Shown here one piece after another: positions 14,661 through 29,063 of a DNA stretch of 64,000 nt. The translations under genes were made by a program, and so were the position numbers. Numbering within the stretch: position 1 is the first letter of the stretch; each line of letters begins with the position of its first letter. Below the pieces are notes generated by a model. That model made no database searches, was not told the origin of the DNA, and saw nothing but the letters and a program-made list of their open reading frames with translations. The DNA comes from Methanosarcinales archaeon (GTDB taxonomy: Archaea > Halobacteriota > Methanosarcinia > Methanosarcinales > Methanoperedenaceae), in NCBI GenBank assembly GCA_905339155.1, contig CAJPFJ010000010.1:62001-126000 (forward strand), read 5' to 3'.

Positions 14661-14915
14661 ATGGTAGAAGATATGGTTTCTAGCCAGTTGGATATCAGAG
14701 GAGTGATGTGCCCTATTAATATTGTTCAGATTAAGCTGAAATTGAAAGAAATTGAAAACGATGGTATTTTAGAAATAGTTCTTGACGAAGGAGAACCGAT
14801 GCAAAATGTGCCACGTTCGATAAAAAAAGAAGGGCACAAGGTAGTAAAAGTTGAAAAGATTCCTGAGGGCTGCTATAAACTTCTAGTAAGGAAAAATGGA
14901 GGTGGTTTGAAATGA
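14661..14915 (+). CDS. TusA-family sulfur carrier protein
   Basis: An 84-residue cytoplasmic protein of the TusA/SirA fold, which carries sulfur as a persulfide on one cysteine. The active site is C17 in LDIRGVMCPINIVQIK; the usual CPxP reads CPIN here. The later GEPMQNVPRSIKKEGH segment is typical. AAGGTG at 14650-14655 precedes the ATG. It overlaps the sulfite-reductase-like gene by four bases, so sulfur transfer and siroheme-type chemistry appear linked in this transcript. Confidence 0.88.
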   Translation: MVEDMVSSQLDIRGVMCPINIVQIKLKLKEIENDGILEIVLDEGEPMQNVPRSIKKEGHKVVKVEKIPEGCYKLLVRKNGGGLK

Positions 14916-15907
14916 TAGATAAATCTGTAAAAGATAAAAGCAATAAAGTAAAAGTAGATACGGAAGTTGAAGGGAAAACGGGGGACATAGATTTCAATAC
15001 TCTCAAATCCGGGGGTCTGATCAAGCAAACGCAAAAAGATTTGTTCACGGTCAGACTTCGCTGCCCAGGAGGCAGGGTCCCACTTTCAAAGCTTGAGAAA
15101 ATTTTAGAAGTAGCAAAAAAATATGCCGGAGACTATGTACATCTTTCTGTCAGGCAGTCTATTGAATTACCGTATGTTGATTATCATGATTTTAAAAAAT
15201 TAAATGAGGAGCTATCAGAAGCTGATCAGAAGATTGCCTCTTGCGGCAGGCGGGTCAGGGTGCCCACAGCATGTTCCGGCTGTGAGTATAATCCAAACGG
15301 CATCATGGATACACAAAAAATGGCAGAAGTTGTAAATGAAAAATTCTTTGCACATCCAATGCCCCATAAATTTAAGATCTCATTTTCAGGATGCCCCATA
15401 GATTGCGCCCGCACTTCTGAAAACGACCTTGGGTTTCAGGGTGCTGTCGAACCCAAATGGGTTGAAGAACTATGCATTGGATGCCGCATTTGCGCCAGTG
15501 CTTGCAGGGAAGGAGCCATAGAGAGCGATCCTGAGAGCGGAAAACCTGTATTTTACGCTCAAAAATGTCTTTATTGCGGGGACTGTATCCGCTCGTGCCC
15601 GACAGATTCATGGCAGGAAGAGAGAAAGGGCTGGATTATCCGGGTCGGTGGAAAGCATGGAAGACATCCTGTCGTGGGTCGCAAAATAGCCGAGTTTGTG
15701 AGCGATGAAGATATTCCGGAGTTCATTGAAGCGATTATAAAATGGTACGAAAAAGCAGGCAAAACATGTGGAACTTTGCGGATCGGGGATATTCTGAGAA
15801 TGCCTGAACAATGGAATGATTTAATTAGCGAATTAAGAATTAAGTTTGATAAGAAACTGCTCCCGGATCCAAAAATGCCGTATAAGAATGAGATACACTT
15901 TGAGTGA
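14912..15907 (+). CDS. sulfite/nitrite reductase-like siroheme protein with ferredoxin domain (copy 1)
   Basis: A 331-residue protein of the single-chain sulfite reductase group found in methanogen relatives. An N-terminal ferredoxin-like half-domain (residues about 34-105, with VRLRCPGGRVPLSKLEKI and YVHLSVRQSIELPYV) precedes the siroheme-cluster region RVPTACSGCEYNPNG (C121, C124) and SFSGCPIDCART (C161, C165). Inserted after it are two 4Fe-4S motifs, CIGCRICASACREG and CLYCGDCIRSCP. It is shorter than DsrA/B and lacks the F420-oxidising part of Fsr. Likely substrate is sulfite or nitrite, not provable here. GGAGGTGG precedes the start inside tusA. A paralog lies at 39588-40565. Confidence 0.8.
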   Translation: MIDKSVKDKSNKVKVDTEVEGKTGDIDFNTLKSGGLIKQTQKDLFTVRLRCPGGRVPLSKLEKILEVAKKYAGDYVHLSVRQSIELPYVDYHDFKKLNEELSEADQKIASCGRRVRVPTACSGCEYNPNGIMDTQKMAEVVNEKFFAHPMPHKFKISFSGCPIDCARTSENDLGFQGAVEPKWVEELCIGCRICASACREGAIESDPESGKPVFYAQKCLYCGDCIRSCPTDSWQEERKGWIIRVGGKHGRHPVVGRKIAEFVSDEDIPEFIEAIIKWYEKAGKTCGTLRIGDILRMPEQWNDLISELRIKFDKKLLPDPKMPYKNEIHFE

Positions 15908-15913
15908 GGAAGT

Positions 15914-16177
15914 ATGTATAGAGTCAAAGCATATAAAAATCAGGATGGAGTCACTCTCCATCTCCTTGGGAAAGATGGGCAGTGGGAAGCAGATAAGTTA
16001 ACGATGTTATCAGACTTGATAAGAAGATACAACATCCCTTTTGTTCACATACCTATGGGAAAAACATTATTTGAAATAAAAATAATCTCATCTGATGATA
16101 TACATTCAATTCTTTTTGAATTGGAGAGAAATGGTTTTATTCTGAGTTCAGAGTCCTTACAATATATAGGAAAGTGA
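15914..16177 (+). CDS. small stand-alone nitrite/sulfite reductase ferredoxin-like half-domain
   Basis: An 87-residue protein that I do not recognise by name. Its layout, with LTMLSDLIRRYNIPFVHIPM then a KTLFEIKIIS strand and a DDIHSILFELERNGFIL helix, resembles the half-domain that occurs twice in nitrite and sulfite reductases (strand, helix, a strand matching YVHLSVRQSIEL in the neighbour, then a helix). No cysteines or cofactor motif are seen. It begins six bases after the sulfite-reductase-like gene behind GAGGAAG, so it may complete or regulate that protein. The domain call is by pattern only. Confidence 0.5.
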   Translation: MYRVKAYKNQDGVTLHLLGKDGQWEADKLTMLSDLIRRYNIPFVHIPMGKTLFEIKIISSDDIHSILFELERNGFILSSESLQYIGK

Positions 16178-16240
16178 ACCTATTCGTTACTCTACTAATA
16201 TAAACAATTAAATAATTTTAATTAAATATAGGTAAATCTA

Positions 16241-16741
16241 ATGGAATGGGAACCTGACGCCGCAAAAGAGATAGAAAGAATACCTGAACATATGCGCAGA
16301 ATGGCAAAAATGGGTATAGAGACTTCGGTAGAGAAAAAAAGTAAGAACATCGTATCTATAGAGGATGTCAAGGAAGCTGCACAGCGCTTCAACTCTTTAA
16401 TGAAAAAGGATGAAAAGACCACAAAGATCGCAATTGTCAGATGCGACATCGTAAGTGAGACCTGCCCAGGCATGGCATGTTTCAAGGCATTCAACAAAAG
16501 GAAAGTTCATTTTAGCGATTACGGTGAAGCTGAGATTATCGGTTTTTTCACCTGTGGAGGCTGCCCTGGAAGACGAATCTTCAGGCTTGTGGATAGCCTT
16601 CTCAAACATGGCGTGGATGTAGTTCACCTGAGTTCATGTATGCTCATGGAAGGGGGTTATCCCAAATGCCCTCATATAGAAGAGATCAGGCAGATGATAC
16701 TTAAAAAAGGCGTGAAAGTTGTGGATGGAACGCACCATTGA
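16241..16741 (+). CDS. PCP_red-CGGC fusion protein
   Basis: A 166-residue two-domain protein. Residues 1-50 (MEWEPDAAKEIERIPEHMRR and onwards, with E27 and VSIEDVKEAAQRF) match the small helical PCP_red domain known from the C-terminus of protochlorophyllide reductase subunit B and from many anaerobe redox proteins. Residues about 62-164 match the CGGC domain: IAIVRCDIVSETCPGMACFKA, then FTCGGCPGRR and LSSCMLMEGGYPKCPH, a cysteine-rich pattern suggesting metal or Fe-S binding. Function unknown. It lies 63 bases after the half-domain gene, same strand, and is likely part of the sulfur/redox transcript. Confidence 0.7.
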   Translation: MEWEPDAAKEIERIPEHMRRMAKMGIETSVEKKSKNIVSIEDVKEAAQRFNSLMKKDEKTTKIAIVRCDIVSETCPGMACFKAFNKRKVHFSDYGEAEIIGFFTCGGCPGRRIFRLVDSLLKHGVDVVHLSSCMLMEGGYPKCPHIEEIRQMILKKGVKVVDGTHH

Positions 16742-16806: not shown

Positions 16807-17073
16807 CTATATTAAATGCTCACTACTGATTACTGCCGCATACCTCTCCGTGATCATCGCCCGCTTGAGCCTGAACATGACCTTCTGCTTATCGAAATTG
16901 AACTGCTCGGCCAACGTCCTGATAAGCCTCTTCTTTGATGCGCCTTTTAAGCTCATCTCTGCCATAATGCCATCCACGAATTCCTTGCTAAGGTCAGATT
17001 CCTTCTTTGCTTCCGGCCTTGGTTCAGGAACTGCCTCTTCTGTTTTGACTCCTTTCTCTACTTCTTCTGCCAT
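16807..17073 (-). CDS. small uncharacterised protein at the 3' end of the Hdr operon
   Basis: An 88-residue protein with no recognised family. The first 35 residues are acidic and low in complexity (EEVEKGVKTEEAVPEPRPEA); the rest (SKEFVDGIMAEMSLKGASKK, then RLIRTLAEQFNFDKQKVMFR) looks like two or three amphipathic helices. Starts at 17082 (GTG), 17079 and 17073 are possible; GAGGTG just upstream fits ATG 17073 best. It follows directly on the FwdB/FdhA-like gene and is the last gene of the minus-strand operon, so a small subunit or assembly role is possible. Confidence 0.6.
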   Translation of the reverse strand: MAEEVEKGVKTEEAVPEPRPEAKKESDLSKEFVDGIMAEMSLKGASKKRLIRTLAEQFNFDKQKVMFRLKRAMITERYAAVISSEHLI

Positions 17074-17078
17074 TCCCA

Positions 17079-18491
17079 TCACCTCGAAATCTCAACAGGC
17101 GTAATAATTCCCTTCTCTATCCCGAACCTGTTTCCTGTAAGCAAAATATTATCCTGGACAGGCGCAACCTTGAATCTCTTTTCAACGACGTTTCCGTTTG
17201 ATTTTATCTTTAACGTCCCGCCTTTTAATAGCTTTAGCGCCCTGACTGTGTTCAAATTCAATTCTACGAAATCATTGTCATCGGCAAGGTTGAACCATGT
17301 GAAAGGATTATACACATCAATAAGAACTGGCTTAGCCTCCAATGCCTTCGGCGCTGCCTGTATTGCACCGTATCCGGGTCTTTCGTATTTCGGTACGGTA
17401 AATTCATTAATTTCCGTAATGCCGATCGCTTTCTTTACAGATTCATGAAGTTCATTGAAATCAAATTTGGCGCCTACAATGGTCCCAAGCACGTAAAGCC
17501 CGTTTATTCCGCTGCCGCCAAGAGCCTGCATCCTCCCTTCATTATTTATGAGCGTACCTTTTTTCTTATAAAGCGGCTCATGGGCTATCACGATATTAGC
17601 TTTTGCAGGGACTGCCTGGCCTGTCTGGATTATCAGGTTCGTGAGCTTTGAAAGAGTCTCAGGGGGTATCAACACCGACGGATCGGATTCAAGAGCAAAA
17701 AGCGTCTTTATCGTTCCTTTATTAATATCATCAACGAGTTGTGCCAGGGATTTTTGTTTTGCATCCTTTGACAGTATATATGCGCCAGTTGAATTCGCAA
17801 AAGGTTTGAGGAATGTTATTTTTGTACCGCTGTTCTTTGCAAGTGAAAGCACATTCTTTACCTGCTCCATATCCGAAAACGGATGGAAATCAGCAATAAT
17901 GAGTGAGTCTTTTGTGAGTGTAAGTTTTGAGGTATCGTTCGGTCTGATGTTCTCATCTGCCAGCGGCAGGTCTTTCCACCAGACTGCTGTTATTTTTGCG
18001 CCTTTACTCTTTGCAGAAAGCAGGCGTCGTACGATCAGAGGATACTGCTCGTACGGGTCAATAAAAAGCACAATATGTTTTGCGGCCTCGATCTCGCTGT
18101 ACGGAATTCCTACGCTGATCGTCTGGTATGTATCCTTCGGAAGCGCTTCAAAATTTACTCCTGTGCATAAATATGATTCGGCGATCTTCTGGAATGCAAG
18201 AAGCTCTTCACATGTGGTATTGCCTGATGAAAGAAATGCAACAGAATCCTTACTTGCTAAAATTCTCTTTGCTGCCTCCTTTGCAGCATTGTCAAGCGTT
18301 ATTTTTTTGCCATCTAAGGTCGATTTTACAGGTGCAAAGAACCTTGGAAGGCTCACTCCGAACCTGCACAGTTTTCCGGCATTGGCAGGCGATGATTTTC
18401 TGAAATCAACTGCCAAATCGGCATTTTTGCGGATATAGAGGCCGCAGCCGAAATTGCAGCCAGGACATATTGTTGAATAAACATCGCTCAT
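17079..18491 (-). CDS. molybdopterin oxidoreductase subunit, FwdB/FdhA-like
   Basis: A 470-residue molybdopterin-dinucleotide enzyme chain. C9, C12, C16 and C42 (CPGCNFGC and later KLCRFG) form the N-terminal 4Fe-4S motif. C94 in SSGNTTCEELLAF is where FwdB and formate dehydrogenases carry the metal-binding Cys. Shorter than formate dehydrogenase FdhA and close to FwdB in length, it lacks much of the standard C-terminal cofactor domain but ends in a VELNLNTVRALKLLKGGTLK dinucleotide-binding-like segment. Within an Hdr-MvhD-FrhB operon it would feed electrons from, or deliver them to, a substrate such as formate; the substrate is not known. ATG 18491 overlaps the preceding stop. Confidence 0.72.
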   Translation of the reverse strand: MSDVYSTICPGCNFGCGLYIRKNADLAVDFRKSSPANAGKLCRFGVSLPRFFAPVKSTLDGKKITLDNAAKEAAKRILASKDSVAFLSSGNTTCEELLAFQKIAESYLCTGVNFEALPKDTYQTISVGIPYSEIEAAKHIVLFIDPYEQYPLIVRRLLSAKSKGAKITAVWWKDLPLADENIRPNDTSKLTLTKDSLIIADFHPFSDMEQVKNVLSLAKNSGTKITFLKPFANSTGAYILSKDAKQKSLAQLVDDINKGTIKTLFALESDPSVLIPPETLSKLTNLIIQTGQAVPAKANIVIAHEPLYKKKGTLINNEGRMQALGGSGINGLYVLGTIVGAKFDFNELHESVKKAIGITEINEFTVPKYERPGYGAIQAAPKALEAKPVLIDVYNPFTWFNLADDNDFVELNLNTVRALKLLKGGTLKIKSNGNVVEKRFKVAPVQDNILLTGNRFGIEKGIITPVEISR

Positions 18492-18694
18492 CTTAAATAC
18501 CACTCTTTTGTAAATCTTCCCAGAGGACGAGTCTCATTAACAAAATGCAGAGGAGTTAATCCGGGAGCGTTTCTCATAGCCTCCATAGATAACATCCCTT
18601 TTCCCAGAGATGAAAATAAATCCAGCCTGCATCCGAGTTCATCAGGGTTCTTCTGCGGCTTATTTTTACTGTTTAAATTAAAATCTTCACTCAT
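18488..18694 (-). CDS. small uncharacterised protein in the Hdr operon
   Basis: A 68-residue protein between the FrhB-like and FwdB/FdhA-like genes. No family recognised; no cysteine cluster (one Cys in DELGCRLDLF) and no membrane segment. The C-terminal half (SMEAMRNAPGLTPLHFVNE) looks folded. Both ends overlap neighbours (8 bases with the gene before, 4 with the gene after), so it is very likely translated in step with them. A docking or adaptor role for the molybdopterin subunit is a guess. Confidence 0.6.
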   Translation of the reverse strand: MSEDFNLNSKNKPQKNPDELGCRLDLFSSLGKGMLSMEAMRNAPGLTPLHFVNETRPLGRFTKEWYLR

Positions 18695-19841
18695 TTAATT
18701 TCACCTCGAAATAGGGGGGCTTTTGCATATCCATCCCTGGCTCATATTTCAACTGCTCCTGCACAGGATTTGCAAACCTCCTGTATAATCTTGTAAGCGG
18801 AATATCAACCGGGCATACGTCACTGCACTGGCCACACCCGATACATGCATCTGCAAGATGCAAAAAGCGAACGAGATGATACATCGACATCTTATAAGCA
18901 TCGCTTCTGGAATGATACTCTGTGCACTTTGAAACATCACCGCACGAGCACGTCGGGCAAACTGTCTTGCATGCGCCGCAGTCGATGCAGTGCTCAAGCT
19001 CTTTCCTGAAATATTCAAGTCTTCCATTCTCGATCGGGACAAATACTTTGCCTTTCCATTTCTTGCCAAGGTCTTCCATCACGCCTTTGATCTTGGCGCG
19101 CATTGCAATACCTTTATCATCAGGCTTTTGCACCTGCACATATCCAGCATCAATCGCATTCTGGAGGAGTTTTGCGCCTTTTTCAGAGTTGATCTCCACG
19201 AATGTGGCTTTTCCCACAAGGTCTCCTGTAACGCCCCAGTTGCCACATGCGATATCAGAATTGTTTGGTACCTTTATCGTACAATAGCGGCAGCTCTCGC
19301 GCCTTCCGAATCCCTTCTCCTCAAGTTCATCAATGGTTATTGCATGTTCTTTCCCATCTTTTGTCTTAAAGATAAGTTTTCCCTTCTCGATCTCTTCACC
19401 GTGGACATCTTCAGGCTTGATCTTATACATCACTTCAAGCATCTCGCGTGTGACAGCAGGATGCATCGACCCGCCGCAGTTCAATCCAACGATGAAAGTA
19501 TTATCAAGATTTATTGCATTGCGCTTTCCCTGCTCGATTATTCCCCGAACATCGCATCCTTTGGCAGGAAGAGCGACTTTGAGGTTCCTGTTCGCGATCA
19601 GCTTTGCAAAGTGGCTCGGAACAGAGTGCAGTGAACCTGCTGCGTTCAGGACTTCATTCACATCAGAAGTAATTATCGGAACAGCTTCAAATTCATTTAT
19701 CTTCTTCAAAACGACAACAGCCTCCACAAGCTTCTTTTCAAGTGCCGCTGCCAGCATTGAAGTCACAAGACCGCCTGAGCCTCCGCGCTTTCTCACGTCT
19801 TCTTTTGTTGACCATCCAACATACATCTCTCCCTTTTCCAT
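18687..19841 (-). CDS. FrhB/FdhB-type F420-linked subunit fused to an HdrC-like ferredoxin
   Basis: A 384-residue iron-sulfur flavoprotein. The N-terminal two thirds match coenzyme F420 hydrogenase/dehydrogenase beta subunits: RGGSGGLVTSMLAAAL at about 20-35, ALPAKGCDVRGI, GLNCGGSMHPAV, and CRYCTIKVPNNSDIACGNWG. The C-terminal third holds two 4Fe-4S sites, CIDCGACKTVCPTCSC and CIGCGQCSDVCPVDIPLT, as in HdrC or glycerol-phosphate dehydrogenase-type ferredoxins. It would exchange hydride with F420 and pass electrons to the Hdr complex. It starts one base into the MvhD gene end. Confidence 0.85.
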   Translation of the reverse strand: MEKGEMYVGWSTKEDVRKRGGSGGLVTSMLAAALEKKLVEAVVVLKKINEFEAVPIITSDVNEVLNAAGSLHSVPSHFAKLIANRNLKVALPAKGCDVRGIIEQGKRNAINLDNTFIVGLNCGGSMHPAVTREMLEVMYKIKPEDVHGEEIEKGKLIFKTKDGKEHAITIDELEEKGFGRRESCRYCTIKVPNNSDIACGNWGVTGDLVGKATFVEINSEKGAKLLQNAIDAGYVQVQKPDDKGIAMRAKIKGVMEDLGKKWKGKVFVPIENGRLEYFRKELEHCIDCGACKTVCPTCSCGDVSKCTEYHSRSDAYKMSMYHLVRFLHLADACIGCGQCSDVCPVDIPLTRLYRRFANPVQEQLKYEPGMDMQKPPYFEVKLNE

Positions 19842-20308
19842 TACGCCACCCCCTCAGGTTTCAATGGACTTGGGCCAAGTTTCTTTATCTGCGCTGTGAC
19901 ATCGCGGATAAAATTGGCGAATTTCTCGCCTTCGCTTGCCGATATCCAGTTGAGCTGAAGCCTCTCTTTTTCAATACCAAGCTCGTGAACCACGTTTTCA
20001 AGATATTTGTATTTTATCTTTGTCTTATCATTCCCGTTAACATAATGGCAGTCGCCAATATGACAGCCTGTGACAAGAACTGCATCAGCGCCTTCCAGGA
20101 ATGCATTGAAAACATGCAGCGGGTCGATCCTGCCTGAACACATGACACGTATGATCCTTGCCGAAGCCGGCTGCTGGAATCTTCCCATACCCGCGCTGTC
20201 CGCGCCTCCGTATGAACACCAGTTGCAGCAGAAGGCCACGATCTTGGGTTCCCAACCGTTGGTTGTTGAGACGTTTAAAGAATTAATTGAACCTTGTTCT
20301 TTGTTCAT
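19841..20308 (-). CDS. MvhD-family 2Fe-2S electron-transfer subunit (second copy)
   Basis: A 155-residue protein of the methyl-viologen-reducing hydrogenase delta subunit family, the piece that links an electron-donating module to HdrA. Conserved cysteines are visible in [27 protein letters not shown] and [11 protein letters not shown]. The ending [17 protein letters not shown] is family-typical. In known complexes MvhD binds a 2Fe-2S centre. It is about half identical by eye to the copy at 22777-23385. In ancestral order it would directly follow the HdrA gene, but the 154-residue AT-rich ORF now lies between them. Confidence 0.87.
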
Positions 20309-20769
20309 AAATCCTCCACGATCGCATAGTATCTAATTTTCTTAACAGGTTTTCCACTTTTTAAAAGCCTAAAATGATTTAGATTTTTCATAGGTTGTAA
20401 AGGAGTGATTTTATTGAGTAAAAAGGCATAATCATTTGGCGAGTATTTAGACGATATAGGCTCAAAAAATTTTAATCTAAATTTTGGGACATATTGTTGT
20501 ATGTTTGGAAAATCCAGTTCCATTATTAGTTTAACATAATCAATTTCAAATTCATAAGAAATCTTTTTGGTTTTGTAAATATAAAAATATCCTGTAGATA
20601 TATCATCATATTTCCAAGGGGATTTTCGAATTACTGACATTGAAGCACCTGGAAAACCAACATTCCAAAAAACTTTATTATTTGCTTTCATATGTTCGAT
20701 ATGGTCAGCAACGTTTAGTAAACTCGGATTCGAAGCCTCTTGTCCTACAGGAATAATAAACGCGCTCAT
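20305..20769 (-). CDS. AT-rich uncharacterised ORF inserted in the Hdr operon
   Basis: A 154-residue protein with no confident family. The pattern [10 protein letters not shown], then [18 protein letters not shown] is reminiscent of EVE/ASCH (PUA-like) modules that bind modified nucleic acid bases, but this is weak. It has no cysteine, unlike every neighbour, and its DNA is clearly richer in A and T than the flanking hdrA and mvhD genes. Its ATG overlaps the hdrA stop and its stop overlaps the mvhD start, so it reads through within the operon. Composition and lack of a redox motif suggest recent insertion. Confidence 0.6.
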
Positions 20770-22775
20770 GCTGCCACCTCCTGGAACTTAAACACGTTCT
20801 TGATCTGCGCAAGCAGCTGGTTATTCTTGAAGTGGCTTTGCTCAAGCGCGCCAGTCGGGCAGGCTGCAACGCATGTTCCGCAGCCCTTACACAATGCCTT
20901 GACCACATTCGCTTTATTTTCTTTCTCATCGAACTTTATTGCCTGGAACGGGCACATTGGCACGCATACCTGGCATCCCACACACACATCAGGATTTACA
21001 ACTGCTGTGATACCTTCTGTTATGGCTTTCTTGTTCTTAAGAAGAATCGTCGCCCGTCCTGCGCATGCGCTCCCCTGGGATACCGCATATGGGATATCTT
21101 TTGGACCTGAAGCGCAGCCAGCGAGGAATACGCCATCTATGGTGGTATCAACAGGCTTGAGCTTTGGATGCGCTTCCATAAGCAGACCATCTGCAGCTTT
21201 TGATAATTTCAATAATTTTTGTATCTGGCCTATCCCTTCATTCGGAACAATGCCAGTAGCCAGCACCAGGAGATCAAACTCAAGGTTTCGCATTTCCCCG
21301 GCGAGAGTATCCTCAACCCTTACTTTGATATTTTTTGTAACAGGGTCTTCTTTCACTTCAACAGGTTTTCCGCGAAGGAACTTAACGCCAAGGTTTCGCG
21401 ATCTGTTGTATGATTCTTCATAAGCCCGAAATGGTGTCCTGATATCGATATACATAACCGTATGGTCAGTCTCAGGGCGCTTTTCCTTGAGAAGCTGCGC
21501 GTTCTTTATCGTGTACATGCAGCAAACGCCAGAGCAATAGATGTTGGTATTTTTATCGCGCGAGCCTACACAATTCACAAATCCTACGCGTATTGGTTCT
21601 TTGCAATCAGATGGACGCACTACATGGCCGCCAGTTGGCCCTGCTGCATTCAGAAGTCTCTCAAATTCCATGGCAGTAATAATATTATCATATAAACCGT
21701 ATCCGAAATCGTGCCGCGGTTCAGGGTCATAGGTCTTAAAGCCCACAGCTCCTATGATGACGCCCACATTAAGATCAGTATATGAAGTCTGCATATCATA
21801 GTTTATTGCACCGCTTGCGCACGCTTTTGCACATGCCTTGCAGTTGATGCAGTTCTCTTTGTCAATAAGGGCGCGAAGAGGGACAGCCTGTGGGAAAGGA
21901 ACAAATATGGCTTTTCGTGTCCCAAGCCCTTCATTAAAGTCATATGGCACTTCGATCGGGCAGACCTCACTGCACTTGGCACAGCCCGTGCATTTGGTGA
22001 CATCAAGATACCTGGGTTTATGCTCGATCTTAACATTGAAATTGCCAACATAGCCATCCACAGCTTTCACTTCTGAATAGCTCATTATCTTAATATTTTT
22101 GTTCCTTGCTACTTCCACCATCTTTGGACCAAGGATGCATATGGAACAATCGTTCGTTGGGAACACTTTATCAAAGCGCGCCATCCTGCCGCCTATTGAA
22201 GGCTCCTTCTCAATGAGATAAACCTGGAAACCCATATCGGCAAGGTCAAGCGCCGATTGCATTCCCGCAACGCCTGCACCGATGACAAGAGCTTTATCAG
22301 TTACAGGTACTTCGCTTGCCTGAAGGGGTTCAAGCAGCTTTGATCGCTCAACACCCATTCTGACAAGGTCTTTTGCCTTCTCGGTGGCTTTTTCCTTCTC
22401 CCACATGTGGATCCATGAACAATGATCCCTGATATTTACAAATTCAAGGAAGTACTGGTTCAATCCCATCTGCTCGATACAGGCCCGGAAAGTGGGTTCG
22501 TGCGTCTTGGGAGAACATGCAGCTACAACAACGCGGTTGAGGTTGTGCTCTTTTATCTTCTGCTGTATGTCAGCCTGCCCTGAATCGGAACATGTAAATT
22601 TATTAACGGATGTAACCTTAACGCCATGTAAAGTTCCAATATAATCCGCTACCGCTTTTGTGTTGACGACGCCTCCGATATTAACGCCGCATTCGCATAC
22701 GAACACACCGACCCGTTTTTCTTCAATATCTTTTTCAACAGTACCTTTGCTTTTAGTACCTTTATTATCACTCAT
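20766..22775 (-). CDS. hdrA: heterodisulfide reductase subunit HdrA (second, single-length copy)
   Basis: A 669-residue flavin and Fe-S protein, the electron-bifurcating centre of Hdr complexes. Domains in order: N-terminal HdrA domain with VGVFVCECGVNIGG and ACSPKTHEPTFRA; FAD-binding Rossmann fold (ALVIGAGVAGMQSALDLADM) with inserted ferredoxin CTGCAKCSEVCP and CINCKACAKACASG; and a C-terminal ferredoxin CVGCQVCVPMCPFQ plus CKGCGTCVAACPTG. The start MSDNKGTKSK at 22775 is one base past the MvhD stop, with AAGGAAG before it; the frame stays open to 22883 only across a repeat element and is not used. Confidence 0.9.
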   Translation of the reverse strand: MSDNKGTKSKGTVEKDIEEKRVGVFVCECGVNIGGVVNTKAVADYIGTLHGVKVTSVNKFTCSDSGQADIQQKIKEHNLNRVVVAACSPKTHEPTFRACIEQMGLNQYFLEFVNIRDHCSWIHMWEKEKATEKAKDLVRMGVERSKLLEPLQASEVPVTDKALVIGAGVAGMQSALDLADMGFQVYLIEKEPSIGGRMARFDKVFPTNDCSICILGPKMVEVARNKNIKIMSYSEVKAVDGYVGNFNVKIEHKPRYLDVTKCTGCAKCSEVCPIEVPYDFNEGLGTRKAIFVPFPQAVPLRALIDKENCINCKACAKACASGAINYDMQTSYTDLNVGVIIGAVGFKTYDPEPRHDFGYGLYDNIITAMEFERLLNAAGPTGGHVVRPSDCKEPIRVGFVNCVGSRDKNTNIYCSGVCCMYTIKNAQLLKEKRPETDHTVMYIDIRTPFRAYEESYNRSRNLGVKFLRGKPVEVKEDPVTKNIKVRVEDTLAGEMRNLEFDLLVLATGIVPNEGIGQIQKLLKLSKAADGLLMEAHPKLKPVDTTIDGVFLAGCASGPKDIPYAVSQGSACAGRATILLKNKKAITEGITAVVNPDVCVGCQVCVPMCPFQAIKFDEKENKANVVKALCKGCGTCVAACPTGALEQSHFKNNQLLAQIKNVFKFQEVAA

Positions 22776-22776
22776 T

Positions 22777-23385
22777 TCACTCACTTCCTTGAACATTAAC
22801 CGCTGACTTGTTAGCCGATGCATTAAATCTGCGTTCATCTGCGTCCCGATTACCCTTCGGGAGCGGGAATCCACGTATGCCATCGGAGCATACGTGTCTG
22901 CGCCCTTCCGAGGCGCGACTCGGAATCTGCGGTTCTATCTTATGCTTGACCGGGTTTTCTCCGAGTTTCTTAATCTCTTCTGTAAAATCTTTTATGACTT
23001 CTGAAAATCTCAATCCTTCGCTTGCTGAGATCCACTCAAGCCGGAGCCTCTTATCAAGCCCAAGCTTTACAAGAGCCTTTTTGGTGTTATTGATCCTGAT
23101 CTCTGCATTCTTATTACCGTCTATGTAATGGCAGTCCCCGATATGGCATCCTGCGACAAGGACTCCATCAGCTCCTTCTTTTAGCGCTTTCAGAATAAAT
23201 GCAGGTTCAACCCTGCTTGAACACATTATCCTGAGTATCTTAACAGTTGGAGGATACTGGAACCTGCTCACGCCTGCAAGGTCTGCCCCAGCATAGGAGC
23301 ACCAGTTGCAGCAAAAAGCAAGAATATTTGGCTCCCAACCGTTTCCTGCCTGCGCGGGCTTAACAGCAGCTGTTTCTATACTCAT
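22777..23385 (-). CDS. MvhD-family 2Fe-2S electron-transfer subunit (first copy) with an inserted-repeat tail
   Basis: A 202-residue protein. Residues 1 to about 150 are a normal MvhD subunit ([52 protein letters not shown]). The last 50 residues have no family match: they are the in-frame translation of a hairpin-rich repeat element at 22826-22935, which extends the C-terminus with an Arg/Ser/Gly-rich tail. The reading frame and the downstream ribosome-binding site for HdrA survive. It overlaps the double HdrA gene by four bases. Whether the tail affects docking to HdrA is unknown. Confidence 0.85.
   Translation of the reverse strand: MSIETAAVKPAQAGNGWEPNILAFCCNWCSYAGADLAGVSRFQYPPTVKILRIMCSSRVEPAFILKALKEGADGVLVAGCHIGDCHYIDGNKNAEIRINNTKKALVKLGLDKRLRLEWISASEGLRFSEVIKDFTEEIKKLGENPVKHKIEPQIPSRASEGRRHVCSDGIRGFPLPKGNRDADERRFNASANKSAVNVQGSE
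22826..22935. repeat. REP-like palindromic element inserted in the mvhD 3' end
   Basis: The segment is bounded by AATCTGCGTTCATCTGCG on one side and AATCTGCGG on the other and holds three hairpins: TCCCG/CGGGA arms near 22844-22868, a perfect nine-base stem 22872-22880 with 22888-22896 (CACGTATGC/GCATACGTG), and GCGCC/GGCGC near 22900-22916. The phrase ATCTGCGTTCATCTGCG recurs at 32965. It looks like a small mobile palindromic unit that inserted in frame. Confidence 0.65.
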
Positions 23386-26300
23386 ACAGTCACCTCCACA
23401 AAGCCTTTGTCAATCAAAATACTTTTAACACCCTTTTCAAACGCATCTATGGCCTCACCGATTTCTTTTGATGAGAAATGCTGCGCAGTTATAGCCCCAG
23501 CAGGACAGGCAGCAGCACATGAACCGCAGCCCTTGCATGAAGCTGCGTTTATTTTTGATTTCTTCGTAGTATATGTGACTTCCTCCACTTTTACGGTCAC
23601 ATCATACAATGAAGGGGCATTATAAGGACAAACCGTAACGCATGTGCCACATCCGATGCATTTTGCTTCATTAACTACTGATATGGCGCCCTCTGTCTCG
23701 ATGAATTTGCGTGACAGGATCGTGCACGCCCTTGACGCTGCGGCGCTTGCCTGCGATATTGCTTCCTCGATAAGCTTTGGAGCCTGGGCACTTCCGCACA
23801 GGAAAACACCGTCGGTGGCAAAATCCACTGGTCGCAATTTGGGATGAGCTTCAAGGAAGAATTTGTTCTTATCAAGAGGGATCTTAAAGAGCTCGTTGAT
23901 CTCCTTATTCTCACCTGCGACAAGAGGTGTACTCAAAACGATGAGGTCTGATGCTAACTCAATATCCAGGTTAAGCATGGCATCATGAACGATTACCGAC
24001 TCGTTTTGCACTTTTGGCAGTTTCTCAGGTTCGTATTTAATGAAAACAACGCCAAGGTCTCTTGCAGTCTCATAGAGCTTCTCCATTATGCCGTATGTTC
24101 TCATGTCACGGTAAAGAACATAGACGTTTGTGCTGCTGTTTGCTTTCTTTATCCTTATCGCATTCTTGACAGCATCAACGCAGCATGTGCGGCCGCAATA
24201 TTCTCGTTCTTTGCTGCGCGCTCCCACACACTGGATCATTGTTACATTTTTAGCGCTGATACTCTTTCCCAGCATTTTCTCAAGTTGCGCCTGCGTGACA
24301 ACGCGTGGATCTTTTCCATACTCGAATAATCCCGAAGGCTCAAGGTTAAGGGCGCCAGTCGCAACCACAGCCGCGCCAAAATCAACTGGTAGTTCCTTTC
24401 CACCTGCAAGAATAGTTCCTTTGAAATTGCCAAGATAACCTTCGACCTTGATCAGTTTTGCCTCGTTTATGATCTTAATATTCTTGTTCCCGCTCACTTT
24501 GCCTATCAGTTCTTTTAGCACATCGGCAGGTTTTTTGCCATCGTATAATTCCATCATTTCACGAAGCATTCCGCCAAGTTCTTTTTCCTTCTCGATCAGT
24601 GTCACATGATAGCCATTATTGGCAATATCAAGTGCAGCGGTCATGCCGGCTACACCACCGCCAAGTACTACCGCTTTGTTAATGAGATCGACTTTTTGCT
24701 TGTAAAGGGGCTGGAAAAGCGCAGATTTTGCCACAGCCATCTGGACTATGCCTTTTGCCTTTTCTGTGGCCCTCTCTTTCTCTTTTGAATGCACCCATGA
24801 GCAGTGCTCGCGGATATTTGCCAGCTCGAAAAGATAAGGATTAAGTCCAGCCTCGCGGCATGTGTTCTGGAATAAAGGTTCATGGGTACGCGGCGTGCAT
24901 GATGCCACTACCACGCGATTAAGATCATTCTTTGAGATGGCGTCTTTTATCGTGACCTGTGAATCAGAAGAGCATGCATAAAGCATTTCCTGGGCATGTG
25001 CTACTCCTGGCAGGGTCTTTGCATATTCCACGACATTGGGGACATTTACAACACTTCCGATATTTATTCCGCAGTGGCAAACGAATACGCCTATGTGCGG
25101 TTCAATCGAGAGTTTTTTCTCATCGGGGAATTTTCGTTCCTTAATGAGCGTCCCGCGTTCCGGGGAGAGCAGGGCGGCGGCCTTTGATGCGGCAGCGCTT
25201 GCCTGTGCTACGGTGTCAGGGATATCCTTGGGACCCTGCGCCACACCGCATACATATATTCCGGCTACACTTGTCTCCACAGGATTTTCGATACTTGTGG
25301 CGATATTTCCGAAATCATCAAGTGCAATTCCTGAGGACTTTGCAAGAGCTTGGGTCGAATCAGCCGGGTCAAGCCCGATGGAGAGAACGACCATGTCAAA
25401 ATTCTTGCTCACAAGGTCTCCCGTATTGAAATCTTCGTATTTCAAAGAAAGAGAATTATCTATGCCAACCGTTACTTCAGACGGGCGGGAGTTGATGTAC
25501 TTAATACCGTATTCCCTCTGCGCCCTGTTATAGAATTCCTCGAAATTCTTGCCATAAGCTCTTATATCGATATGGAAAATGGTAATATTAAGTTCAGGAT
25601 CATGCTCTTTTGCGATTATGGATTCCTTGGTGGCATACATGCAGCACACTGAAGAGCAGTGCTTCCTGTCGATCCTGGGATTTCGTGAACCAACGCACTG
25701 GATGAATGCAATATTTTTCGGGACTTTCCCGTCTGTTTGTTTTGTGACATGACCCTGCGTGGGGCCGCTTGCGCTCAACAGGCGCTCGAACTGGAGTGCT
25801 GTTATGACATCAGGATGATCGAACCTGTATTGTTTCAGGATCGAAGGGTCAAACGGCTTAAAACCTGTAGCGAGCACCACTGAGCCAACATCGAGTTCCA
25901 CTTCTTTATCCTTTTGTTCATAATCAACAGCTTTTGGGCCGCATACTTTCTTACATACTCCGCATTTGCCTTTTGTGAGGTAAATGCAATGTGCAGCATC
26001 GATCGTCGCAACCCTTGGTATAGCCTGCGCGAATGGGATGTAAATGGATTTACGCTTTGACATGCCTGCATTATATTCATCGGCTACTTTAGATGGGCAT
26101 TTTTCAGTGCATGATCCGCATCCTGTGCATTTTGTCTCATCGACATATCGGGCTTTATTAACGACTTTTACTTTGAAATCACCGGCTTTGCCAGTTATGG
26201 ACTTGACATCGCTGTATGCGAGTAATTCTATATTGGGATGGCGCGCGGTCTCCACAAGTTTCGGGGAAAGGATGCACATGGCGCAATCATTCGTAGGGAA

Positions 26301-26441
26301 TGTCTTGTCAAGCTGGGACATTACGCCGCCAATGCTTGGTCTTGATTCAATAAGATAAGTTTTAAAACCGCTGTCAGCAAGGTCAAGTGCTGCCTGTATT
26401 CCCGCTATTCCACCGCCAACTACCGCTACTGAGCCTTTCAT
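23382..26441 (-). CDS. hdrA: double-length HdrA fusion (two HdrA flavin modules and ferredoxins)
   Basis: A 1019-residue fusion. Residues 1 to about 425 form an HdrA FAD module beginning directly at VVGGGIAGIQAALDLADSGF, with CTGCGSCTEKCP and CGVCKKVCG inserted clusters. At about 440 a second complete HdrA starts with its N-terminal domain (IGVFVCHCGINIGSVVNV, SCTPRTHEPLFQ), followed by a second FAD domain (VLGGGVAGMTAALDIANNGY) and a C-terminal ferredoxin with CIGCGTCVTVCPYN and CKGCGSCAAACPAG. Standard HdrA is about 650 residues. Two flavin centres in one chain would replace an HdrA dimer. It overlaps hdrB by four bases. Confidence 0.9.
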   Translation of the reverse strand: MKGSVAVVGGGIAGIQAALDLADSGFKTYLIESRPSIGGVMSQLDKTFPTNDCAMCILSPKLVETARHPNIELLAYSDVKSITGKAGDFKVKVVNKARYVDETKCTGCGSCTEKCPSKVADEYNAGMSKRKSIYIPFAQAIPRVATIDAAHCIYLTKGKCGVCKKVCGPKAVDYEQKDKEVELDVGSVVLATGFKPFDPSILKQYRFDHPDVITALQFERLLSASGPTQGHVTKQTDGKVPKNIAFIQCVGSRNPRIDRKHCSSVCCMYATKESIIAKEHDPELNITIFHIDIRAYGKNFEEFYNRAQREYGIKYINSRPSEVTVGIDNSLSLKYEDFNTGDLVSKNFDMVVLSIGLDPADSTQALAKSSGIALDDFGNIATSIENPVETSVAGIYVCGVAQGPKDIPDTVAQASAAASKAAALLSPERGTLIKERKFPDEKKLSIEPHIGVFVCHCGINIGSVVNVPNVVEYAKTLPGVAHAQEMLYACSSDSQVTIKDAISKNDLNRVVVASCTPRTHEPLFQNTCREAGLNPYLFELANIREHCSWVHSKEKERATEKAKGIVQMAVAKSALFQPLYKQKVDLINKAVVLGGGVAGMTAALDIANNGYHVTLIEKEKELGGMLREMMELYDGKKPADVLKELIGKVSGNKNIKIINEAKLIKVEGYLGNFKGTILAGGKELPVDFGAAVVATGALNLEPSGLFEYGKDPRVVTQAQLEKMLGKSISAKNVTMIQCVGARSKEREYCGRTCCVDAVKNAIRIKKANSSTNVYVLYRDMRTYGIMEKLYETARDLGVVFIKYEPEKLPKVQNESVIVHDAMLNLDIELASDLIVLSTPLVAGENKEINELFKIPLDKNKFFLEAHPKLRPVDFATDGVFLCGSAQAPKLIEEAISQASAAASRACTILSRKFIETEGAISVVNEAKCIGCGTCVTVCPYNAPSLYDVTVKVEEVTYTTKKSKINAASCKGCGSCAAACPAGAITAQHFSSKEIGEAIDAFEKGVKSILIDKGFVEVTV

Positions 26442-27364
26442 TGTGCTGCCTCCGCTTCAACTGCTGTTGCTATTTTTGCCTCTACCTTTTTCTCAGCTGG
26501 TTTTTCTTTTCCGATGGATGCAATAAGTTTTGAAGCTGAAACCATGTTCTTATCCAGTTCAAGTTCTTTTTCGCCCAGATCCATCGCAAGTCCGATAAGC
26601 TGGGTAAAATAAAGCACTGGCATATCGATCACCGTGTTATGGGCTTTTTCGATCATTCCCTGCTGCCCGTCAAGCAGCATGTGGCACATTGGGCATGCAA
26701 CCACTATACAGTTAGCACCTCTGGCTTTTGCTTCGTCGAACAATTTCTTCGTGAGAATGAATGCATAATCCTGTTTGCTCATCAGAAGATTGCCGCCGCA
26801 ACATTTCGTTTTCTGGGTAAAAGGCAGACATTCGGCGCCTGTCGCCTTAATAATATCATCAAGGGATGTGGGATTTTCAGGATTATCGAATTTACATATC
26901 TCTGATGGACGTATAAGAAGGCAGCCGTAATATGGGACTGCTTTTATGCCATTCAGGGACTTTTTGAATTTCGTGGCAAGGGTTTCTGTTCCCAGGTCAT
27001 TTACAACGACATCCAGAAGATGTTTTATATTTACACCAGTATATTTTTCATCGAGCGCTTTTTCGATCTTTTCCCTGAAACCGCTATCCGTTTTCATGGC
27101 TTTATCAGCTCTTGAAAGATTATGCGAGCAAATGCTGCATGGGATGACAAGATCAAGACCTGTTTTTTGAGCCTTGAAATTATTTCGGGCAGATAAGCCC
27201 ATGGAGAGTTCCTTGTCAAAAATCGCCTCAAGCGCTCCGCAGCAGTTCCAGTCATCGATTTCTGTAAGCTCAATGCCAGCCGCTTTGCATATTGCCTTTG
27301 TGGATGCATCGTATTCGCGGGCTGTTCCGTGGAGCGTACATCCAGGATAATAAGCAAGCTTCAT
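26438..27364 (-). CDS. hdrB: heterodisulfide reductase subunit HdrB
   Basis: A 308-residue protein with two CCG domains that bind the noncubane 4Fe-4S clusters where disulfide substrates are reduced. The first has YYPGCTLHGTAREYD, CCGALEAIF and PCSICSHNL; the second YYGCLLIRP, KCCGGNLLMS and VACPMCHMLL. The last 35 residues are an Ala/Lys/Glu-rich extension not needed for the fold. It follows hdrC with a four-base overlap. The substrate in this operon need not be CoM-S-S-CoB; related complexes act on other thiols. Confidence 0.9.
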   Translation of the reverse strand: MKLAYYPGCTLHGTAREYDASTKAICKAAGIELTEIDDWNCCGALEAIFDKELSMGLSARNNFKAQKTGLDLVIPCSICSHNLSRADKAMKTDSGFREKIEKALDEKYTGVNIKHLLDVVVNDLGTETLATKFKKSLNGIKAVPYYGCLLIRPSEICKFDNPENPTSLDDIIKATGAECLPFTQKTKCCGGNLLMSKQDYAFILTKKLFDEAKARGANCIVVACPMCHMLLDGQQGMIEKAHNTVIDMPVLYFTQLIGLAMDLGEKELELDKNMVSASKLIASIGKEKPAEKKVEAKIATAVEAEAAQ

Positions 27365-27927
27365 TTTTCCACTCCCTCAAATATGCGCTTGATCTCGCCT
27401 TTTCCTTTTATCGTATGCGGCAGGATGCTTAATTTCCCTTTTTTCCACAATTCAAGACCCATTGGAGCATAACCGATCGCTCCACCTATACCTTTTGTCT
27501 TTAGCATGAACGTGCCGCTCACACCTGCTTCATACCATTTTCCGTTCTTCTTGACCGAGTCGATGAAAAGATGATCAAAAAGCGGTTTGTGATTAGTGAG
27601 CTTGATCTTGCCGGCTTTTGCCTCGCGCTGTGCGATCGCGCGTATGGCTCCAATGACTTCTGTAATTTTGACATCCTGCGGGCATCGTTCATAGCAGATA
27701 TAGCATGAAGCGCAAAGCCAGAGTGACTCATCAGAAAGCACTTCTTTTCTCATGCCAAGGATGGCTTTTCTAAGTATCATTCGCGGGTTGTAGGTTTTAT
27801 CGATTTCGGTGACCGGACATCCAACAGTACAGCCCGTGCAGTTGAAACATTTTTTAATATTCTCGCCGCCCGGTTCTCTGGATATTTCATATTTAAAATC
27901 CGGGTCAAGATCAGTTGATTTTATCAT
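27361..27927 (-). CDS. hdrC: heterodisulfide reductase subunit HdrC
   Basis: A 188-residue ferredoxin-like subunit that passes electrons from HdrA to HdrB. The two 4Fe-4S motifs are CFNCTGCTVGCPVTEI (about residue 28) and CASCYICYERCPQDV (about residue 72). The C-terminal region (GGAIGYAPMGLELWKKGKLS, then PHTIKGKGEIKRIF) is typical of HdrC. ATGA overlaps link it to genes on both sides. Confidence 0.9.
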   Translation of the reverse strand: MIKSTDLDPDFKYEISREPGGENIKKCFNCTGCTVGCPVTEIDKTYNPRMILRKAILGMRKEVLSDESLWLCASCYICYERCPQDVKITEVIGAIRAIAQREAKAGKIKLTNHKPLFDHLFIDSVKKNGKWYEAGVSGTFMLKTKGIGGAIGYAPMGLELWKKGKLSILPHTIKGKGEIKRIFEGVEK

Positions 27928-28952
27928 TTTCCCGCCTCCAGCTGCCGCGCAAGGAATACGCTTAAGTCCACAATATCAAGATCATACTTCTTTGTTGCAT
28001 CTTTTTCAGTTTTAAGGCAATTAAAATGCGCAAGGCACTTTGAACATGTTGTGATCAGGGTCTTTGCGCCTGTAGCTTCTGCTTCGTTCATGCGTGCAAT
28101 GCGAAGCGCCTTTGTCTGCTCGTTGCAGTTCATGAAATTACTTACTCCGCAGCACAGGGCATTTTGTTTTGAATGCTCCATCTCTTTTACGATCACGCCA
28201 TTTGCAGTGAGTGCATTTCGCGGTGCGTCATATACACCCATGTGCCTGCCAAGCCTGCATGGGTCATGGTAGGTAACTTGCTTATTGATCTTCATTCCAA
28301 GCTTATCATAGAGTTGCGATGTATGAACGACTTTTATTCCGAGGTCATAATCCTTCGAAAATGTGCGGTAACATTCTGCGCAGCTTGTGACAAGGGTATC
28401 AATGCCGCTTTCTTTGATAGATTTCTTATTATAATTCTTTAACCTATCGAAAACATCTTTTTTCCCTTGCCATAGAACATCATGACCACAGCATTTCATA
28501 TTCATGACCTGCGGTTTTATACCCAGTTTATCAAGAAGCTTGAGTGACGATGTGGTAATTTCCCCGAAATTGGTTTTTACATCGTGAAGGAACAGGTCGA
28601 GTGAGTCCACACATCCTGGAAAGAATCCATATTTCGAGTCTGATGTTTTATCGGGAATGTTCCCGTTCAGTTTTGAGCTCAATTCCGCCATTTCCGTAAA
28701 AACACCAAGATGAGCAATATCCAGGGGCTGTTTCCCATTCCTCTCTTCACGTATAAAGCCAAGGAAATCCACCTGCTGCGGGCATTCGATCGGACAGAGG
28801 CCGCATGTCAGGCATGTCCAGATGTCTTTTGTTTCAAGCCCATACACACTGGCATTATATATTGAACTGCGTGGTGAGGTCTTCGAAACCCGGCGCATTG
28901 GGCATATGGATGTGCATTTTCCGCATTGATAACAAGATTGTACGTTACTCAT
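27924..28952 (-). CDS. HdrD-like iron-sulfur protein (HdrC-HdrB type fusion), first gene of the operon
   Basis: A 342-residue protein. N-terminal ferredoxin motifs CYQCGKCTSICPMRR (residue 7 on) and CLTCGLCPIECPQQV are followed by two CCG domains: GFFPGCVDS, KCCGHDVLW, SCAECYRTF and then YHDPCRLGRHMG, LCCGVSNF, TTCSKCLAHF. This is the HdrD layout, so the operon has two separate sites of noncubane-cluster chemistry (this and HdrB). It may act on a second disulfide or receive electrons from one. No gene lies directly upstream on the same strand for 110 bases, so the operon promoter is expected there. Confidence 0.85.
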   Translation of the reverse strand: MSNVQSCYQCGKCTSICPMRRVSKTSPRSSIYNASVYGLETKDIWTCLTCGLCPIECPQQVDFLGFIREERNGKQPLDIAHLGVFTEMAELSSKLNGNIPDKTSDSKYGFFPGCVDSLDLFLHDVKTNFGEITTSSLKLLDKLGIKPQVMNMKCCGHDVLWQGKKDVFDRLKNYNKKSIKESGIDTLVTSCAECYRTFSKDYDLGIKVVHTSQLYDKLGMKINKQVTYHDPCRLGRHMGVYDAPRNALTANGVIVKEMEHSKQNALCCGVSNFMNCNEQTKALRIARMNEAEATGAKTLITTCSKCLAHFNCLKTEKDATKKYDLDIVDLSVFLARQLEAGK

Positions 28953-29063
28953 TTCGTATCCACCATCGTTAATTCTGGTTAAATGTTCATAAATTTCGAT
29001 AGAATTTCATCATCAATTAATACTTGAATTCATGAGGATACAATGTCAATCGATTTGTGTTCT

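Follow-up and report, generated by a model that had tools for sequence, protein, structure and literature searches.

A heterodisulfide reductase (Hdr) gene cluster in an archaeon of the Methanosarcinales (Methanoperedenaceae; GenBank assembly GCA_905339155.1) probably encodes a reversible machine that bifurcates and confurcates electrons among F420, ferredoxin and the coenzyme M-coenzyme B (CoM-CoB) couple, in which the molybdopterin-oxidoreductase-like protein MopB serves as linker; that the subunits form a complex, how the electrons travel and in which direction is what we infer. The cluster occupies positions 28952-16807 on the minus strand of the window, the whole stretch of 64,000 nucleotides that was analysed (contig CAJPFJ010000010.1, positions 62,001 to 126,000), as twelve open reading frames (ORFs) without internal stops. 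We also consider it likely that the machine is soluble and of the published 'type II HdrA-Molybdop-FdhB' kind, in an expanded form that adds an HdrD-like protein and a further HdrA. Papers of 2015-2026 have already described the system, this cluster included, and what is new here is the replacement of its HdrC-HdrB end by a QmoC-like subunit in three of 31 Methanoperedens genomes. The wider question is how ferredoxin and thiols are recycled in Methanoperedens, a nitrate- or metal-respiring methane oxidiser. The genes are listed here in cluster order.

28953..29063, minus strand: intergenic stretch of 111 bases between the preceding same-strand gene and hdrD; likely promoter region (predicted).
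27924..28952, minus strand: hdrD, HdrD-like protein of 342 amino acids with two 4Fe-4S motifs and two complete CCG motifs.
27361..27927, minus strand: hdrC, HdrC of 188 amino acids with two 4Fe-4S motifs.
26438..27364, minus strand: hdrB, HdrB of 308 amino acids with both CCG motifs complete.
23382..26441, minus strand: hdrAII, fused double HdrA ('type II') of 1019 amino acids.
22777..23385, minus strand: mvhD1, FlpD family; its tail lies within a stretch bearing a short dispersed repeat.
20766..22883, minus strand: hdrAI, single HdrA with all its parts ('type I'), probably starting with Met37 (22775).
20305..20769, minus strand: orf154, optional insert at the mvhD2 start; no family match.
19841..20308, minus strand: mvhD2, FlpD family, of the clade that adjoins frhB in relatives.
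18687..19841, minus strand: frhB-ferredoxin, FrhB/FdhB-ferredoxin protein of 384 amino acids, nearest to FdhB/ElpB of solved Hdr complexes.
18488..18694, minus strand: orf68, variable filler ORF that overlaps both neighbours.
17079..18491, minus strand: mopB, molybdopterin-oxidoreductase fold, 470 amino acids from ATG; open frame from GTG at 18503.
16807..17082, minus strand: orf91, conserved helical domain of ~50 amino acids behind a variable linker; accompanies hdrAI.

Scans against Pfam and NCBIfam recovered two FlpD/MvhD proteins, HdrA, HdrB, HdrC, FrhB/FdhB with ferredoxin domains and a Molybdop_Fe4S4 match in the last large chain (MopB), which confirms the genes named, and their positions and strand, in the original prediction, a reading made from the letters of the window. 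The HdrD-like protein gave TfrB/LdhH-like family matches under the cutoff. Almost all genes had been described as joined by overlaps, and this is so at 10 of the 11 joins (eight of 4 bases, one of 1 base and one of 8 bases), the remaining join being a 1-base gap provided that hdrAI begins at Met37. The open frames of mvhD1 and hdrAI share 107 bases (22777-22883) in a stretch that contains a 25-33-base repeat, for which seven further places in the genome are listed.

Conservation of the cluster was followed at several levels. MopB was present in 25 of the 30 genomes searched (the window's own, 17 of the same genus and 12 of the same order), all 18 of the genus among them, and, at a cutoff of 1e-100, an hdrAI orthologue of at least 88% identity in 29 of the 31 genomes of the genus; the exceptions are G010 (87% complete), in which cluster pieces sit on small contigs, and G034 (68% complete). 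Gene-by-gene comparison covered 52 named loci (L numbers) from one scan of genome contigs, 'Methanoperedens-type' being assigned by record name or, where the record says 'uncultured archaeon' or 'Euryarchaeota', by a MopB identity of 63-98%. Over the parts covered, the fetched Methanoperedens-type loci agree in gene order, the exceptions being three with hdrC-hdrB replaced, and this order is far beyond chance.

All twelve ORFs first counted are present in the window; the conserved Methanoperedens cluster is one of ten genes, orf68 and orf154 being optional inserts. Filler ORFs like orf68 (68-183 amino acids) are present in 18 and absent in 10 of the 28 Methanoperedens-type loci with frhB and mopB, and orf68 was rejected as a conserved subunit because of this absence and because sequence and length vary. 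The fillers of the frhB-mopB gaps contain repeated words, e.g. NSSGLTPL and QMNADERR, and their length differs between species. The other insert, orf154, lies at the hdrAI/mvhD2 join and elsewhere has only a BLZ2 counterpart and one in L072 (3744-4232, 36% identity, same place); it has no family in Pfam, NCBIfam or PHROGs. In the window it overlaps its neighbours by 4 bases on both sides and, since orf68 does likewise overlap both of its own, this suggests translational coupling under selection at the inserts. With regard to orf91, it was found in 35/35 loci in which hdrAI is present and mopB is followed by 148 bases or more, and it was not found in L103 and L107, both without hdrAI and with 10 kb available downstream; L111 ends at mopB. 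Its family matches are chance-level only (DUF167 at 0.064 for the L085 homologue and a PHROG of unknown function at 0.056), and a fold search gave a best E of 0.47 and no informative match. The orf91 linker is rich in K, E, A and P and very variable in length.

The three HdrA flavin modules and two MvhD that had been predicted are indeed there, the former as HdrAI and the two halves of HdrAII. Residue numbers are those of the solved HdrA 5odc_A, with positions in the alignment counted by hand. HdrAI and 5odc_A align over their whole length, and HdrAI keeps Cys197, E356 and K409, which together with the two CCG motifs of HdrB are the canonical HdrABC features in the window; the CCG motifs of the second CCG-type protein, HdrD, are complete as well, in line with the two CCG-type sites first noted. 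HdrAII consists of two thioredoxin-reductase-type halves, each with a GxGxxG flavin motif. By alignment, its N half keeps Cys197, E356 and K409 and has the inserted ferredoxin domain, the N-terminal domain being absent; in the C half the N-terminal domain is present and ferredoxins follow at the C-terminus, E and K were placed by eye (the stretch falls outside the alignment), and neither a TNDC motif (Cys197) nor an inserted ferredoxin nor, over residues 600 to 900, any cluster motif was seen. Judged by these motifs, there are three flavin sites, only two of them with a ferredoxin outlet. Complementarity of Cys197 and the N-terminal domain of HdrA has been described by Chadwick et al. (PMC9012536), and the order of the halves along HdrAII is opposite to that given there for HdrA3/4.

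MopB had been read as an FwdB/FdhA-like chain that links the complex to formate or another Mo/W substrate. It has four invariant cysteines (C9, C12, C16, C42) for one [4Fe-4S] cluster and an invariant K229-P230-F231 (K-P-F). The alignment included one FdhA fragment and three FwdB proteins from the window's genome, two with Cys-His and one with Cys-Gln, and in its ligand column Cys is replaced by Thr, Ala, Val or Ile in 32/32 Methanoperedens-type rows (the window, L060-L087, L108, L110 and L023). The metal-binding residue thus seems lost, the formate or Mo/W substrate is not supported for Methanoperedens, and the idea that MopB works as a Mo/W enzyme here was rejected. The original prediction had itself raised the case of a chain that lacks any cofactor site; this is largely what was found, with the ligand-column Cys gone and the four [4Fe-4S] cysteines remaining. 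Cys is absent in L103, L107 and L111 too, and L109 does not cover the column. On the other hand, Cys followed by His occupies the column in 18/18 rows from ANME-2, Methanosarcinales and Methanosarcinaceae records (L088-L102, L104-L106). This distribution may explain a contradiction in the literature, in which Cys is reported as retained in ANME (anaerobic methanotrophic archaea) homologues (PMC9012536) and as absent from all sequences of the clade (PMC12054007), and it suggests, from the aligned residues, that each paper is right for part of the MopB family; our Methanolobus row (PECHP) disagrees with the Methanolobus example in PMC12054007.

It is very improbable, in view of this residue table, that MopB, the last large subunit, functions as a formate (or other Mo/W) dehydrogenase, with formate made or used by the machine. 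Such a role finds some support in the Cys-His rows just described, in the conserved Cys reported for ANME homologues, in the best NCBIfam match of MopB, which is Fdh-alpha (43.9 bits, where the cutoff is 666), and in a 2026 paper on BLZ2 (PMC13079737), whose copy is 98% identical in MopB and which reads the last cluster genes as fdhAB and links HdrABC to formate. Against it stand the complete absence of Cys from the Methanoperedens-type rows, the invariance of K-P-F and the lack of any Pfam molybdopterin domain in MopB apart from Molybdop_Fe4S4 at E 0.001.

In the bifurcating-confurcating machine that we favour, FrhB would exchange hydride with F420, and electrons would travel from its clusters, by way of the one cluster in the linker MopB, itself without catalysis, to MvhD2, docked on an HdrA, whose flavin would split them to, or merge them from, ferredoxin (at the inserted ferredoxin domain) and CoM-S-S-CoB (at HdrC-HdrB). 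HdrAII would serve as a built-in asymmetric HdrA dimer, one half acting as the mobile arm and the other providing flavin and ferredoxin outlet. MvhD1, for which the cluster holds no separate donor subunit, probably wires HdrAI to HdrAII. HdrC-HdrB seems to be a module that can be exchanged, since a QmoC-like membrane subunit takes its place in three relatives. The earlier view of an Hdr-type system able to connect F420, ferredoxin and a disulfide is supported. FrhB is closest to FdhB/ElpB of the solved Fdh-Hdr and Elp-Hdr complexes (7bkb_E, 9t1s_M and 8rvu_E, the last at 5.5e-88), and structure and activity have been reported for an F420H2-dependent Elp-Hdr complex with an FdhA-like subunit that lacks the molybdopterin region (PMC12350162). 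Proposals similar to ours have been made (PMC12054007, PMC4683180).

A distinct complex had been suspected; one of this make-up appeared in print in 2025 (PMC12054007) and is thus not new as such. With the type II HdrA-Molybdop-FdhB system (PMC12054007; also PMC9012536, PMC5690323, PMC4683180) the window shares i) an HdrA with two thioredoxin-reductase domains, i.e. the fused double HdrA; ii) HdrBC, MvhD and an FdhB/FrhB-type F420 subunit within one cluster; and iii) a Molybdop protein without the ligand Cys and with Pro-Phe, the column being placed by sequence alignment only. An extra HdrA and HdrD accompany the ANME version in PMC12054007 as they do here, and we infer that K-P-F is its published Pro-Phe pair. 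The Elp-Hdr complex of Methanothermobacter marburgensis (PMC12350162; 8RVU, 8RVV, 8RVY) likewise has an F420-binding FdhB-like subunit, a Mo-free FdhA-like linker, an MvhD homologue and HdrABC. It differs in that ElpABC-HdrABC is a symmetric dimer, whereas HdrAII is fused and asymmetric, and in that ElpA is a truncated chain of 342 amino acids without the molybdopterin-binding domain, whereas MopB, at 470 amino acids and with a C-terminal strand-rich region predicted by a low-confidence model, appears not obviously truncated. In a Foldseek search with this model NuoG and formate dehydrogenases came best and ElpA lower (ranks 29-30). FdhAB-HdrABC is set apart by a catalytic FdhA with a Cys/Sec ligand, which by alignment MopB does not have.

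The arrangement of the genes in other lineages bears on whether they form a single machine. The full cluster, in a single direction, occurs in L097, L104 and L105 (ANME-2 or Methanosarcinales records). In L091, which groups with a Methanogasteraceae record in a quick flank tree, the hdrD-hdrC-hdrB-hdrAII-mvhD1 set is divergent from the hdrAI-mvhD2-frhB-mopB-orf91 set, and L088 is divergent in the same manner as far as its contig reaches, ending in hdrD. L090, L092 and L106 have the second set, with no match to the hdrD set in 5.7-6.4 kb upstream. Only one HdrA type is found in L101 (Methanolobus; hdrC-hdrB-hdrAI-mvhD2-frhB-mopB-orf91) and in L103, L107 (a GoM-Arc1 record) and L111 (hdrC-hdrB-hdrAII-mvhD2-frhB-mopB); L102 is partly masked and was left out of this comparison. 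The original prediction had named separate operons with promoters of their own in relatives as what would speak against it; judged by gene order, the divergent and one-HdrA loci go part of the way towards this. MvhD1 and MvhD2 form two clades with a Shimodaira-Hasegawa-like approximate likelihood ratio test (SH-aLRT) value of 99 each, in a quick tree of 26 rows chosen from 15 loci plus the window, with long branches flagged, and the MvhD adjoining frhB is of the MvhD2 kind with either HdrA, one-HdrA clusters included. These arrangements can be read as one operon for two co-expressed enzymes in separate particles, HdrD-HdrC-HdrB-HdrAII-MvhD1 and HdrAI-MvhD2-FrhB-MopB-Orf91, as the split loci, the solitary second sets and the one-HdrA clusters would have it. 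We regard this as unlikely, though a good deal less so than the formate role, since two HdrA share a single F420 module and a single HdrBC, MvhD1 would be left without a donor, and the order is contiguous in Methanoperedens and in the three loci with the full cluster.

As for the direction of electron flow, the potentials given in PMC4683180 (ferredoxin -500, F420 -360, CoM-S-S-CoB -143 and menaquinone -80 mV) yield, by our own arithmetic, means of -321 mV for ferredoxin/heterodisulfide and -290 mV for ferredoxin/menaquinone. The heterodisulfide version is near equilibrium and reversible, and for a QmoC-like version the balance, should menaquinone be its acceptor, tips towards reduction of ferredoxin driven by F420H2. 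Two bifurcations in series have been proposed (PMC12054007), and the complex might chiefly be an F420H2-driven bifurcating ferredoxin reductase, in which two serial bifurcations lower ferredoxin, not a confurcating enzyme in methane oxidation. This is compatible with the reversible machine, and we rate it somewhat below an even chance. Electron flow from F420H2 to ferredoxin and heterodisulfide is ~39 mV per electron downhill at standard potentials, that to menaquinone in QmoC-like variants ~70 mV downhill (own arithmetic), and the E/K flavin residues occur in all three modules (by eye in the C half); against this, the direction would be set by ratios within the cell, and only two of the three flavin modules have an outlet in the form of an inserted ferredoxin domain.

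Several points weigh against the reversible machine with a dead MopB linker: i) no biochemistry of this complex was found in the literature; ii) confurcation to F420 is ~39 mV per electron uphill (standard potentials, own arithmetic), which leaves the direction unsettled; iii) the divergent layout of L091 argues for separable units; iv) frames are shortened in two copies from metagenome-assembled genomes (MAGs; hdrAII of L067 and hdrD of L066); v) the MopB ligand column is placed by sequence alignment alone, and an earlier alignment put the Cys of 'LCTG' near the ligand site, with Tyr in several Methanoperedens-type rows; and vi) the AlphaFold model of MopB is weak, with a mean predicted local distance difference test score (pLDDT) of 59.5 and residues 89-129 below 50.

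Qmo-type complexes are HdrA-like flavoproteins with QmoC, and QmoC combines an HdrC-like iron-sulfur part with a membrane cytochrome subunit. A QmoC-like gene of 369-374 amino acids replaces hdrC-hdrB in L085 (nzgw24; 1233-2342), L079 (Ig 1; 1094-2218) and L076 (LFW-280_3_2; 1685-2794), and full-length qmoC matches occur in 3/31 genus genomes (G005, G002 and G011), all inside this cluster; the window has HdrC-HdrB and no QmoC, and its genome gave no full-length QmoC-like match. All three proteins have five hydrophobic segments and conserved histidines and score below the qmoC family cutoff, that of L085 matching NCBIfam qmoC over residues 6-354 (3.4e-56, 191 bits, cutoff 300). No hdrB was found among the ORFs of these clusters, and hdrD is kept, with both CCG motifs in L085. 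An assembly error is unlikely as the source of the cassette, because three differently named MAGs have it, all with 4-base overlaps at both ends (qmoC-hdrD and hdrAII'-mvhD1). In a phylum sample of 392 genomes, a QmoC-like match (1e-15) was present in 41, all in one other family and at best 49% identical; among seven of these places inspected, HdrA-like genes are near by in 6 and MvhD-like genes in 2. QmoC, or the full name of Qmo, appeared together with Methanoperedens in no paper found, preprints and most subscription journals being outside the search, and the word 'Qmo' is absent from PMC12054007, PMC9012536 and PMC7327174 (main texts searched), an exchangeable QmoC-like version going unmentioned in the first of these.

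The hdrAII beside the QmoC-like gene is 54-56% identical to that of the window, and the three form one clade (SH-aLRT 100, branch 1.12) in a tree of 30 rows of at least 980 amino acids. On hdrAI+mvhD2+frhB+mopB (28 rows, truncated loci left out) the same three loci are rejected as a clade by the approximately unbiased (AU) test, p = 0.0012. A third cassette type, in L077 and L108 (hdrC 57-58%, hdrB 47% and hdrAII 62% identity), is likewise one clade on hdrAII and rejected as a clade on the flanks (p = 6e-5); both tested groups were defined by their cassettes, and a quick flank tree had been inspected before testing. One clade for the cassette hdrAII and none for the flanks points to a swappable high-potential module. 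We tentatively propose, without reaching an even degree of belief, that the Hdr cluster is a modular electron hub in which the high-potential end is exchanged as a cassette at one locus, HdrC-HdrB-HdrAII (for CoM-S-S-CoB) in most species or QmoC-like-HdrAII' in three, while the F420 arm (HdrAI-MvhD2-FrhB-MopB-Orf91) and HdrD stay, MvhD1 being the wire, and in which lateral exchange would give a membrane-bound F420:ferredoxin:quinone enzyme. The acceptor of the QmoC-like-HdrAII' end would probably be menaquinone, at the membrane. The swap of a heterodisulfide end for a QmoC-like end offers a comparative test of acceptor and direction.

The window's genome carries a second copy of the cluster on contig G000:C59 (MopB 85%, hdrAI 93%), and BLZ2 has two copies as well; when duplication was weighed against transfer as the origin of the window's copy, a clade of these four copies with LFW-24 was not rejected (p 0.22). 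An apparent in-frame stop in the HdrA paralogue of the genome was discarded, as it is merely a stop preceding the start codon. A BLZ2 contig of 129,614 bp (G017:C27) carries this cluster (MopB 98%), narG and two cooS, and ~95 kb of it aligns at 94.8-100% and in inverse orientation to the 151,967-bp contig of the window (G000:C10), counting pieces >800 bp. In BLZ2 a 156-kb circular element is reported to share 129 kb with the chromosome and to carry this gene set (PMC13079737); size and gene set fit, and the BLZ2 contig would correspond to this shared region. The window's contig is largely collinear with it but has other ends, and no terminal repeats were seen among the self-matches of the two long contigs. 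Its likeness to the mobile element of PMC13079737 suggests that the redox module can travel as a whole. Rfam and tRNA scans of the window gave no match. Adjoining the cluster on the plus strand (14661-16741) lies a convergent gene group of opposite direction, which by eye comprises a TusA-like protein, a small sulfite-reductase-like iron-sulfur protein and a CGGC-type protein.

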